Of a DNA stretch of 64,000 bases, positions 41,442 to 48,655 are shown in pieces. Location of the stretch: contig NZ_LVVY01000063.1 in assembly GCF_001650025.1 (NCBI RefSeq), forward strand, positions 1-64,000, given 5' to 3'. The stretch is from Devosia elaeis (lineage in GTDB: Bacteria; Pseudomonadota; Alphaproteobacteria; Rhizobiales; Devosiaceae). The notes beneath the pieces were generated by a model that had not been told where the DNA came from, made no database searches, and saw only the letters and a program-made list of their open reading frames with translations. How positions within the stretch are numbered: position 1 is the stretch's first letter; every line of letters begins with the position of its first letter. The translations under genes and the position numbers were made by a program.

Positions 41442-41933
41442 TTACTTGGGGGGCCAGACGGCGGTGTCGTGGTCGGGATGCTGGTGGTTTGAGGCCTGAA
41501 TCGCACTCCACCAATCCTTGCGATCCGGATCTTCGGTCACGCCGCCATTCTCGATAACGGTCAGCGTTTCGAACCAGGGCACCATGCCCTCGGTGCCGGT
41601 ATTGGCGCGGGGCGGGAAGAGCTCGGGATGGTCAAGCGACCCAATGGTGAAATTGACCCGGTTGCCTTCCACATTGTCGTAGAAAAGCGGCGTTCCACAA
41701 TTGGCGCAGAAACCGCGATCGACATGATCGGATGAGCGGAAACGGGCCGGCTCGCCGCGCGTCCAGGTGATGGCCTCGCGCGGGGCAGCGACTAGGGCCG
41801 CGAAGATATTGCCCACGGCCTTCTGACACATGCGGCAATGGCAGATGTGGGAATTGTCCAGCATTTCGCTGGCGTGATAGCGCACGGCGCCGCATTGGCA
41901 GCCGCCGCTGACTTCCATCTTGTAGCGTTCCAT
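41442..41933 (-). CDS. GFA-family protein (glutathione-dependent formaldehyde-activating fold), copy 1
   Basis: Encodes 163 residues. Zinc ligands CQCGAVRY (about 12-19), HICHCRMCQK (about 29-38) and FCANCGTPL (about 75-83) define the family. GFA proteins bind glutathione and zinc; the claimed formaldehyde activity is disputed, so the biochemical role is open. ATG 41933 follows GGAGGAGA and overlaps the preceding GFA gene's stop by one base (TGATG). The C-terminal NHQHPDHDTAVWPPK matches its neighbour's NQHPDHDTADWPPK, so the pair arose by tandem duplication. Confidence 0.87.
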   Translation of the reverse strand: MERYKMEVSGGCQCGAVRYHASEMLDNSHICHCRMCQKAVGNIFAALVAAPREAITWTRGEPARFRSSDHVDRGFCANCGTPLFYDNVEGNRVNFTIGSLDHPELFPPRANTGTEGMVPWFETLTVIENGGVTEDPDRKDWWSAIQASNHQHPDHDTAVWPPK

Positions 41934-42406
41934 CAGGTCTCCTCCTTCGGTGGCCAATCGGCTGTGTCGTGGTCCGGATGCTGGTTGGAATGGATGCCGG
42001 CCATGAAATCGCGCCATTCGTCGCTGACCTCGTGGCGCTCCGGCAGAGTGCTGAGCCCGGCGAAGAAGGGCTGGCGGTCGGTCAGGTTCACCTGGATTTC
42101 GGGGGCCGCGACCCTGGGATCGTCGAAGGCGCCGATGGCCAGTTCGAGCCCGAAGCGGGTTTCGTAGGCCAGCGGAGTGCCGCAATCGCCGCAGAAGGCG
42201 CGGCGGGCGGCATTGGAGCTCTGGAACCATTTGGGTTCGCCCCGGGTCCAGACCGCGTTATGCGCCGTGACCAGCGGGCCGAAAAAGCCGCCGAAGGCCT
42301 TTTGGCACATACGGCAATGGCAGATGGACGGGCGACCCAGACGGGTCACCCTGAAACGCACGGCGCCGCATTGGCACCCACCCGTATGGGCTTCTCTATC
42401 CGCCAT
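41933..42406 (-). CDS. GFA-family protein, copy 2
   Basis: Encodes 157 residues from ATG 42406 (MADREAHTGGCQCGAV). Same zinc motifs as its neighbour: CQCGAVRF, SICHCRMCQK and FCGDCGTPL. It shares the C-terminal HPDHDTADWPP tail with copy 1, but the middle differs enough that the duplication is old. Its start lies 11 bases inside the 3' end of the VOC gene, so translation is coupled. No membrane or export signal. Confidence 0.87.
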   Translation of the reverse strand: MADREAHTGGCQCGAVRFRVTRLGRPSICHCRMCQKAFGGFFGPLVTAHNAVWTRGEPKWFQSSNAARRAFCGDCGTPLAYETRFGLELAIGAFDDPRVAAPEIQVNLTDRQPFFAGLSTLPERHEVSDEWRDFMAGIHSNQHPDHDTADWPPKEET

Positions 42407-42776
42407 GAAATACCGCCTCGATATTGTTGCCATCAGGGTCGAGCACGAAGGCACCGTAATAGTGCTCGTGATAATGGGGACGCGGGCCGGGACCGCCATT
42501 GTCCGTGCCGCCATTGGCCATGGCCGCCGCATAGAAGGCGTCCACTTCGGCCTGCGAGGCGGCCTGGAAGGCATAGTGACGGCCGGGACCGGTCTCGGCG
42601 CTCTCGGTCAGCCAGAAATCCGGCTTGGCCTTGCCATAGCCGCCAACCTTGACGCCCCCGGTATATTGCTCGGGGACTTCGGCCAGCATGGAATAGCCCA
42701 GCGGGGCAAAGGCGGCGTCATAGAAAGCGCGGGCCTTGGCCCAATCGGTGACGAGGATGCCGACATGATCGATCAT
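42396..42776 (-). CDS. VOC-superfamily (glyoxalase-like) protein
   Basis: Encodes 126 residues from ATG 42776 (MIDHVGILVTDWAKARAFYDAAFAPLGY), with AAAGGAGAT upstream. Two beta-alpha-beta-beta-beta modules; the C-terminal half ends YGAFVLDPDGNNIEAVFHGG, with the metal-ligand Glu in IEAV. H4 and other His/Glu residues could complete a metal site. Family members detoxify methylglyoxal, modify glutathione adducts or resist antibiotics. With two GFA proteins beside it, a glutathione-linked detoxification role is possible but unproven. Confidence 0.85.
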   Translation of the reverse strand: MIDHVGILVTDWAKARAFYDAAFAPLGYSMLAEVPEQYTGGVKVGGYGKAKPDFWLTESAETGPGRHYAFQAASQAEVDAFYAAAMANGGTDNGGPGPRPHYHEHYYGAFVLDPDGNNIEAVFHGG

Positions 42777-44750: not shown

Positions 44751-44783
44751 CGAGGGTCCTGTAGGCCAGACATGGGGATGCTC

Positions 44784-44839
44784 TGGCGGGGAGCCTCTAT
44801 CCGTTGAGAATTACCGGGATGAAGAAGACCGCTCCGCCA
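44784..44839 (-). promoter_or_regulatory. Hairpin in the cysS leader with competing pairing partner
   Basis: On the cysS strand, TGGCGGAGC (44839-44831) can pair with GCTCCCCGCCA (44794-44784), with a two-base bulge. The loop contains GGTAAT (44815-44810), which is complementary to ATTACC present twice inside the leader ORF (44874-44869 and 44859-44854). This gives mutually dependent structures whose balance would change when a ribosome stalls on the leader's Cys codons. No U-tract follows, so the effect might be on translation or Rho rather than intrinsic termination. Confidence 0.45.
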
Positions 44840-44847
44840 ACTTTGGG

Positions 44848-44892
44848 TTAGCAGGTAATAATGCAGCAGGTAATGGTGCACGTGGTCTTCAT
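44848..44892 (-). CDS. Cysteine-rich leader peptide upstream of cysS
   Basis: ATG at 44892 to TAA at 44848 encodes MKTTCTITCCIITC: four Cys in 14 residues (positions 5, 9, 10, 14), in a genome where Cys is scarce. The stop lies 97 bases before the cysS start codon. The 10-base unit ATTACCTGCT occurs twice, 15 bases apart. There is no purine-rich ribosome site, but a promoter-like pair (44901-44929) would start transcription at or near the ATG, so a leaderless mRNA is plausible. Function by ribosome stalling at Cys codons when charged tRNA-Cys is low is inferred from known amino-acid attenuators. It could be chance, but the Cys density directly before cysS makes that unlikely. Confidence 0.65.
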   Translation of the reverse strand: MKTTCTITCCIITC

Positions 44893-44900
44893 GGCGCCGG

Positions 44901-46239: not shown

Positions 46240-47382
46240 GTGACGTTTCCCTCTCCTGGCCTTCGGGTCCTCCTGCTCCTGGTTCTGACGACCATCGTGC
46301 TGGCCCTGGATGTCGAGTCCGCCTATGCTCAGGCCAATCAATGCGGGCGGCTGCAAAGCGCCCTGGCGCAGTTCGACCGCAATGGCGAATTCCGGCAGGT
46401 GAACCAGAATACCAATGCGGCCCGGCAATTGGGGCGGCAGGTGCAGGACGCGGAAAGCCGCTATATCCGCCAGGGCTGCAACGACGATGCGCGGGCCGGC
46501 CGCATCCTGACGCAGGAATGCCAGCTGATCGCGCGGGACGTGATCGCGCTGCGCAATCAATATGCCGCGCTCGCCCAGGCCGTCGACACCGGCAATGCGG
46601 TGGCCCAGCAGCGCGAGGCGATCCTGCAGGAAATGGCGCGCTTCGGCTGCAATGCCGGCTCCAGCGCCACTTTCTCCCAGGACCGGCAATCGATCTTCGA
46701 CCGGATTTTCGGCTCCACCACCGGCGGCGATTTCACCGATGGGGATTTCGTCGATGGCGGGAACTGGGGCTACCAGGGCTACCACACGGTGCGCACGGTC
46801 TGCGTGCGGCTCTCGGACGGCTATTTCTGGCCGATCAGCTATGCCACGCTGTCCGAATATGTCGGCAATGACGCGATGGCGTGCCAGCAGATGTGCCCCA
46901 ATACGCCGGTGGAGCTCTATTTCTACGACAATCCCGGCCAGGAGCCCGAGCAGATGCGCAATCTGTCGGGATCGCCCTATACCTCGCTCCCCAATGCCTT
47001 TGCCTATCGAACCAATTTCGACAACGATTCGAGCTGCACCGCGGCCCCGGTGGCGGACGGCTCGGTGCGCGTGGCCGAGAGCGCGGATGGCAGCGGCCGG
47101 GCCATCGTGGAGATCAATGGGGTGAATTTCCCCCTGCCGCTGCGCGATCCGCGCGGAGTCGTGCCGGTGCAGGCGGCCGTGGCGGCCGCCGAGCCGGTGG
47201 CCAATGTGGCGCTGGTCGACGTGCCCCTGCCCCGTCCCCGGCCTTCAGGCCCGGGCGAAATCGCGCGGCGGCCGGAAGCCCCGGCGCCGGCCGAAATGCG
47301 GATCGTTCATTTTGGCGACAAGGCGGTCAGGGTAGTCGGTCCAGACACGCCTTACGCCCAAGCAGGACGAGCAGGGACTTGA
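46240..47382 (+). CDS. Secreted DUF2865 protein
   Basis: Encodes 380 residues from GTG 46240 (AAGGA six bases upstream). Signal peptide: [23 protein letters not shown], predicted cleavage near residue 30. A helical Gln/Arg-rich region (35-130) with paired Cys is followed by the DUF2865 core [21 protein letters not shown]...[23 protein letters not shown] (about 185-235). Cys residues suggest disulphides. The C-terminal tail is Pro/Ala-rich ([11 protein letters not shown]). The function is unknown; it is found in Hyphomicrobiales. Its last 56 bases overlap the 3' end of the convergent gltX gene. Confidence 0.82.
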
Positions 47383-48655
47383 GCTCGGGGCCGTCGTGGC
47401 GGCCCGTAAGCGCCATGCGCAGGGGCATGAACAGCGCCTTGCCCTTGCGGCCGGTGGCGGTCTTGAGCGCATCGGTCCATTGTCCCCAGGTGGTGTCGTC
47501 CCAGGGCTCGGGCGGCAGCAGGGCCTTGGCCAGCGCCAGGAAATCCTGGTCTTCGGGCGCCACGACCGGCGCGATGGGGCCGGTGACGAGCCTGGACCAT
47601 TCCACGATATCGGGAAAGCGCGTCAGGTTTTCGCGCAGCAGCATCCACATGGCCTCGCCCTCGAGCCCCAAAGCGGAAAGGCGCGGCGCGGCGTCCTCAT
47701 AGGACATGGCGTGCAATAGGCGGGCATTGAGGCCATTGAGCTCGGCCGGGTCGAAGCGGGCCGAACCATGCGAAATCATCGAGAAATCGAGCTTTTCGGC
47801 GATGGCATCGAGGCTCTCATAGGGCTCGACGGACAGGCTGGTGCCGGTGAGCGTGGCGGCGATGGCCACCGCCAGCGGCTCATAGCCCTCGGCGCGGAAA
47901 TCGGCGATGGACTGCGAGCCGAGGCGCTTGGAAAAGCCCTGCCCCGCCGCGTCGGTCAGCAGGTTGTGGTGGCCGAAGGCCGGCACCGTGCCGCCCAGGG
48001 CCTCGAAGATCTCGATCTGGGTGCCGGTATTGGACACATGGTCCTCGCCCCGGATCACATGGGTGATGCCTAGGTCGATATCGTCCACCACCGAGGGCAG
48101 CGTATAGAGATAGGAACCATCGGCCCGGATCAGCACCGGGTCAGACATGGAAGCGGTATTGACGGTCTGCGCGCCCTTGATGACGTCTTCGAACTGCACA
48201 GGGCGGCCGTCGAGCTTGAAACGCCAATGCGGCTTGCGGCCTTCGGCTTCGAGGCGGGCGCGATCATCGTCGGTTAGGGCCAAAGCGGCGCGATCATAGA
48301 TGGGCGGCTTGCCCAGGAGGCGGGCGCGAGCGCGCTTGCGATCGAGCTCATCCTCGGTTTCGTAGCAGGGATAGAGCCGGCCGGCGGCGATCAGCCGGTC
48401 GCGGGCGCCATCGTAAAGCGCGGTGCGCTCGGACTGGCGCACCAGCAGGTCGGGCACGATGCCGAGCCAGGCCAGGTCCTCCTCGATGCCGTCGGCGAAG
48501 GCCCGCGTGGAGCGCGCCAGGTCGGTATCGTCCATGCGCAGGACATATTTGCCGCCGTGGCGGCGGGCGAAGAACCAGTTGAGCAAAGCCGGCCGGGCAT
48601 TGCCCAGATGGATGCGACCGGTGGGCGATGGCGCCCAGCGTACGATGACACTCAT
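47327..48655 (-). CDS. gltX: Glutamyl-tRNA synthetase
   Basis: Charges tRNA with glutamate; 442 residues. HIGH-type motif HLGN in [23 protein letters not shown] (6-28) and a KMSKS variant FSKRLGSQS. Alphaproteobacteria often carry two paralogues, one of which may charge tRNA-Gln for the transamidation route; this one's short length and KRLGSQS motif suggest the secondary type, but that is not certain. The start overlaps the nadE stop by four bases (ATGA), so they form one operon. The 3' end overlaps the DUF2865 gene on the other strand. Confidence 0.93.

Follow-up and report, generated by a model that had tools for sequence, protein, structure and literature searches.

Does the short, cysteine-rich reading frame just ahead of cysS in this Devosia DNA serve as a leader that adjusts cysteinyl-tRNA synthetase to the supply of Cys-tRNA(Cys), or does its presence have some other explanation? 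The sequence-only reading of the window, by which we mean the whole 64,000-nucleotide stretch that was analysed, had pointed to a 14-codon ORF with four Cys codons and a stop 97 nt ahead of the cysS ATG on the minus strand, and this was confirmed by translation and coordinates. The locus is made up as follows.

44892 to 44848, minus strand: leader ORF (uORF), MKTTCTITCCIITC and a stop, 14 codons with Cys at 5, 9, 10 and 14 (translation and genus alignment).
44750 to 43371, minus strand: cysS, cysteinyl-tRNA synthetase, the gene proposed to be regulated (PF01406 match, E=4.6e-113).
44965 to 44944, minus strand: terminator-like hairpin at the 3' end of the upstream FAA-hydrolase gene (terminator scan).

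The terminator-like hairpin at 44965-44944 would set the FAA-hydrolase gene apart from the cysS unit and, since it ends that gene, cysS probably has its own promoter. The minus strand also holds a gene with a glutamyl/glutaminyl-tRNA synthetase catalytic domain (47327..48655) slightly upstream of the cysS region, and downstream of cysS are two overlapping tandem ORFs (41442..42574, minus), both of which contain a Cys-rich GGCQCGAVR...CHCRMCQK-type stretch. The likelihood that such a Cys-rich ORF arises by chance was estimated from the ORFs of the window and from intergenic shuffles. The window contains 830 ATG ORFs between 8 and 40 codons long, two of which, the leader ORF included, have at least four Cys and at least 20% Cys. 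When the 339-nt intergenic region was put through 3000 dinucleotide shuffles, an equally Cys-rich ORF appeared in 3 of them.

With a 190-nt query, the leader was matched in 68 of the 75 genomes of the genus. A mini-ORF precedes cysS in 71 of the 75; the remaining four also lack a cysS match. A second DNA match in one genome (G026, locus L100) reads as a transporter coding region and was taken as a chance match. A covariance model (R1) built from 55 leaders of the genus then found the leader in 126 of the family's 136 genomes, representing 15 of 16 genera, with one match per genome. When 84,980 species genomes were searched by pattern, nearly all of the 46 matches were in genomes titled Devosia or Pelagibacterium, the remaining few being metagenome bins under broader names. 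In each of two genomes (G235 and G265) the main cysS is accompanied by another cysS-like match, a divergent one at 47% identity. Most of the remaining families sampled from the order likewise have, ahead of cysS, a mini-ORF that begins with ATG and carries Cys and Ile towards its end, as in MAPTRSRAICICGIIIR, MKTSFAICGICIIG, MAHQPICICGLIIRG and MNGFAIICGIICG, some entries in this order-level set being weak or chance; no leader ORF was obtained before cysS in a few sampled families. Several of the leaders outside Devosiaceae carry a single Cys, with IICS or IICG endings.

The pattern of conservation is that of a coding sequence. The ATG, frame and stop are kept in all 68 aligned leaders of the genus, and the ATG and an ATTATT anchor share a frame in all 91 testable Devosiaceae leaders, over ORF lengths of 11-18 codons, whereas the spacer behind the stop differs by single bases. 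The expectation that an alignment with relatives would show a conserved ATG and Cys codons was borne out: close and distant relatives alike keep the start codon, the frame, the stop and the Cys codons at the C-terminus. Third-position variation, also proposed as a check, is found at the family level as synonymous TGC/TGT, ATT/ATC and GGC/GGT changes (Cys -9, counting back from the stop, is TGC in 29 leaders and TGT in 5; codon -7 is ATT in 11 and ATC in 13). Judged by these comparisons, the leader ORF is a translated sequence. Within Devosia the last leader codons are almost invariant in nucleotides, which also reflects a constraint on the RNA.

All across Devosiaceae, Cys lies close to the ORF's end. 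In Devosia, Cys -1 is present in 68/68 leaders, Cys -5 in 60/68 and Cys -6 in 17/68, while in the rest of the family Cys -9 (34/41) and Cys -5 (33/41) are the common positions and codon -1 is Arg (39/41). Between families the Cys codons shift in number and position, yet remain near the stop. The Cys-richness first seen in the window therefore holds in part: codons 10 and 14 are conserved in the genus, but codons 5 and 9 lack genus-wide conservation. The four-Cys peptide of the window reads as a Cys-enriched version of the leader, whose Cys richness appears to be partly clade-specific. Ile -3 is the codon that varies least, being ATT in 68/68 leaders of the genus and in 41/41 of the rest of the family. 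Across the order, in GC-rich genomes, ATT at -3 (usually also at -4) is near-invariant, above any Cys codon.

How translation of so short an ORF might begin is suggested by the sequence ahead of it. The promoter-like pair noted in the sequence-only reading is present as described, with TTGATT at 44929-44924, 17 nt, CAATCT at 44906-44901 and 8 nt to the ATG.

44929 to 44901, minus strand: predicted promoter-like pair TTGATT-N17-CAATCT, 8 nt before the ATG (spacing kept).

A simple sigma-70 scan of the window did not score the TTGATT/CAATCT pair as a promoter. Most of 109 Devosiaceae leaders have T-T-G starting 34-37 nt ahead of the ATG; A is found at -12 in 80% and T at -8 in 62%, and the promoter-like boxes keep a constant distance from the uORF ATG. 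In the same 109 leaders the mean pairing energy with the 16S tail is -1.5 kcal/mol before the uORF and -4.9 kcal/mol before cysS, and a Shine-Dalgarno-like site (-4 kcal/mol or better) precedes 6% of the uORFs as against 91% of the cysS genes. The fixed distance from promoter to ATG and the absence of a Shine-Dalgarno site before the ATG fit leaderless translation. Transcription is accordingly predicted to start at or adjoining 44892, which would probably make the uORF leaderless.

The RNA of the leader has several possible pairings, formed by the following segments.

44890 to 44884, minus strand: P1 5' arm GAAGACC, inside codons 1-3 (co-varies with 44830..44824).
44830 to 44824, minus strand: P1 3' arm GGUCUUC, in a pyrimidine-rich tract reaching 44816 (covariation).
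44854 to 44847, minus strand: segment 1, CUGCUAAC, the 5' arm of hairpin 1:2, covering the last Cys codon, the stop and one further base (folding).
44841 to 44834, minus strand: segment 2, GUUGGCGG, 3' arm of 1:2 and alternative partner of segment 3 (covariation).
44789 to 44783, minus strand: segment 3, CCGCCAG, partner of segment 2 or segment 4 (covariation and folding).
44770 to 44765, minus strand: segment 4, UCUGGC, pairing with GCCAGA at 44787..44782 (folding).
44760 to 44757, minus strand: cysS Shine-Dalgarno site AGGA, shortly after segment 4.

The pairings were assessed by a swap test, in which the fit of a leader's own arms is set against that of swapped arms; relatedness partly remains in this test, but is shared by the controls. 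In the family and order sets, own arms fit better than swapped arms for P1 (z -2.8 family, -6.7 order), for segment 2 with segment 1 (z -7.6 and -4.1) and for segment 2 with segment 3 (z -4.6 and -2.9). In the controls, the start region with segment 3 and segment 1 with segment 3, own partners fitted no better. Within the genus the test gave little signal, with 2:3 alone showing some, because the pairings hardly vary there. In relatives, P1 exchanges AAGACC:GGUCUU for AAAACC:GGUUUU, and the tract holding its 3' arm is U-rich (GGUUUUCUUC) in the rest of Devosiaceae. Of 95 leaders from the family and order, nearly all are predicted to form hairpin 1:2. Several types of pair occur at most of its positions, and TAA, TAG and TGA stops interchange within it along with matching partners. 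Because both use segment 2, the predicted pairings 1:2 and 2:3 are mutually exclusive.

The free leader folds better than its shuffles (z -3.0). To represent a ribosome on the leader, folding was repeated with a mask reaching as far as 15 nt past the P-site base, and averages were taken only over leaders with an 84-112 nt gap, because the automatic cysS start is wrong or absent in some loci. When codon -1 or -2 occupies the A site, 2:3 rises in the non-Devosia Devosiaceae from about 2 to 10-12 expected pairs, and 1:2 vanishes. In the window's own sequence, a ribosome on the last codons gives a small rise of 2:3, from 1.0 to 3.9 expected pairs, and 3:4 stays in every folded state. The folding model predicts that a ribosome on the last codons flips the structure of the leader, the flip being weak in the window sequence. 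In five genomes (G068, G031, G032, G051 and G046, at loci L039, L045, L050, L053 and L057, respectively) a dispersed palindromic repeat with a GGAAAAGTGG/CCACTTTTCC core sits inside the 3:4 loop, both arms being kept. In the four of these genomes that were searched for it, the repeat occurs in 1-7 copies each, and the five may share one insertion.

Taken together, we consider it very probable that the leader is a cysteine attenuator of cysS, sensing a shortage of Cys-tRNA(Cys) and raising CysS. RNA polymerase would start at or adjoining the ATG, and the 14-codon uORF would be translated without a Shine-Dalgarno site. With ample Cys-tRNA(Cys), the ribosome would complete the uORF and depart, whereupon the last codon and stop would pair with segment 2 (1:2) and the start region with the tract behind the uORF (P1). 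The leader with 1:2 and P1 would be the OFF form, in which cysS expression is presumed to be lowered. When Cys-tRNA(Cys) is scarce, the ribosome would be expected to halt when a terminal Cys codon reaches its A site, masking segment 1 and disrupting 1:2 and P1; segment 2, thus freed, would pair with segment 3 to give the ON form and more CysS. Genome comparison shows a conserved ORF that reads as translated, the missing Shine-Dalgarno site, the terminal Cys codons and the covarying pairings, two of them exclusive. What we infer is where transcription starts, that the ribosome stalls, in which direction cysS is regulated and how the output is produced.

Set against a classical ribosome-mediated attenuator, the leader ORF does contain control codons for the product amino acid, and the swap tests and masked folding point to ribosome-dependent exclusive structures, weak in the window, whereas a simple terminator scan found no canonical, factor-independent terminator within the leader. 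We therefore say that the leader would work like an attenuator, and do not call it a classical transcription attenuator. A non-canonical or Rho-dependent stop may be used. Occlusion of the ribosome site was set aside as the main output, as predicted access to the cysS Shine-Dalgarno site barely moves with ribosome position. For the output we lean towards transcription ending early at the U-rich tract that follows 1:2 and P1, in preference to hiding of the ribosome site by 3:4, because termination is how the counterpart in Rhodobacterales has been interpreted in the literature.

The same leader and sensor could instead act on translation, segments 3, 4 and their flanks hindering the cysS ribosome site in the OFF form and 2:3 freeing it. 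This is a possible output, if on the unlikely side: segment 4 adjoins the Shine-Dalgarno site in the window, the 3:4 arms are preserved around the loop repeat in five genomes and the scan found no canonical terminator, but the masked folding shifts Shine-Dalgarno accessibility only from 0.36 to 0.42 in the family and not at all in the window.

The constancy of Ile -3, together with the single-Cys leaders outside Devosiaceae, means that Cys sensing is not the whole explanation of the conservation. One broader proposal is that the leader reads a second signal besides Cys-tRNA charging. It would then be an ancient, leaderless attenuator of cysS, common to Hyphomicrobiales and Rhodobacterales, whose invariant Ile codons at the C-terminus reflect a contribution of the nascent chain or of the RNA; we regard this extended form as doubtful. 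It is also improbable that the nascent peptide itself arrests the ribosome, in the manner of TnaC or SpeFL, and senses a small molecule in place of under-charged tRNA(Cys). The residues nearest the peptidyl transferase centre are indeed the most conserved, and Ile -3 exceeds any Cys in constancy in the wider order, but the drift of Cys codons among families, always near the stop, suits codon-based sensing, and the preference for ATT over ATC points to a constraint on the RNA.

Conservation of an RNA element or promoter alone, with an incidental ORF, would account for the near-invariant last codons within a conserved hairpin in Devosia, but is made very improbable by the ATG-anchor distance, a multiple of three in every testable leader at varying ORF length while the post-stop spacer varies by single bases, by the synonymous changes at the family level and by the interchange of stops in the hairpin. 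That the ORF is a functionless chance occurrence, for which one could cite the one further ATG ORF of similar Cys content in the window, is refuted to near certainty by its conservation across the family and order at one position before cysS.

How does the cysteine attenuator proposed here relate to known systems? In Gram-positive bacteria, aminoacyl-tRNA synthetase genes are regulated according to tRNA charging by T-box riboswitches, which bind uncharged tRNA directly, without translation. The present leader would also control a synthetase gene, but has no match to any Rfam family, even at a permissive threshold, and leader ORFs this small easily escape gene annotation. Leaderless poly-Cys short ORFs of mycobacteria are reported to be cysteine-responsive attenuators (Canestrari et al. 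2020, cited in PMC13236596). They belong to another phylum and are described as controlling cysteine biosynthetic genes (PMC13236596). The likeness in description lies in a short Cys-containing ORF that is leaderless, here by prediction. We know of no such mycobacterial ORF that controls cysS. In the same order as Devosia, trpL of Sinorhizobium meliloti is likewise a leader ORF of 14 codons ahead of an amino-acid gene, leaderless and translated in Ribo-seq, but it has Trp codons, precedes trpE and also yields a trans-acting sRNA and peptide (PMC10117765, PMC7298713). As far as these descriptions go, both halves of the mechanism exist elsewhere.

The nearest counterpart is uORFC-8-2, a Cys-codon uORF upstream of cysS that was published as exclusive to Rhodobacterales (Brewer et al. 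2021, PMC8632094). As described there, it has a conserved AUG, two tandem Cys codons (usually 14 and 15), two stems, the first with the Cys codons, and a 3' U-run as intrinsic terminator, and ribosome-mediated attenuation is proposed (PMC8632094). The view that no Cys leader of cysS had been described in Hyphomicrobiales stands for the literature searched, in which we found none for that order, but uORFC-8-2 is such a leader in Rhodobacterales (PMC8632094). Our comparison sample comprises 41 genomes of one order of the class, all of one family, and is taken to be Rhodobacterales; its cysS leaders (MKNTCIIICCIITC, MKTTCIIICCISC and others) match the published description of uORFC-8-2. The Devosia model R1 matches many of these leaders (best E 4e-8). 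Conversely, a model built only from them (R2, a reconstruction and not the model of Brewer et al.) matches 32 of 33 Devosiaceae loci, one weakly (L137, E=1.2), and has its sole match in the 64 kb window at 44900..44802 (36.7 bits, E=6.4e-5). The window therefore holds a new Hyphomicrobiales occurrence of a known kind of leader, and not a new class.

Both elements immediately precede cysS and are oriented as it is, with a conserved AUG and a short Cys uORF followed by a hairpin. By the published account, uORFC-8-2 has tandem Cys codons, whereas tandem Cys in the window (codons 9-10) is missing from most of the genus, where the conserved Cys are spaced; its first stem holds the Cys codons, and here the last Cys codon sits in 1:2, with the ORF enclosed by P1; and it ends in a U-run terminator, whereas here the hairpin is followed by a pyrimidine tract, UCUUCUUC, with no canonical terminator by scan. 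To that account the Devosia leader would add leaderless translation and the competing 2:3 pairing, both predicted. Judged by position, the presumed taxon and the reconstructed model, the two are the same kind of element, and they are probably homologous. While uORFC-8-2 was reported from Rhodobacterales only, the present leader runs through Devosiaceae and its order, and exclusivity to Rhodobacterales describes where such elements were known to occur, not how they work. The Hyphomicrobiales leader widens the known class and founds no new one. It extends a Cys-codon attenuator of cysS, published as confined to Rhodobacterales, to a much larger order with many model symbionts, and offers a testable architecture of predicted leaderless translation and co-varying alternative pairings.
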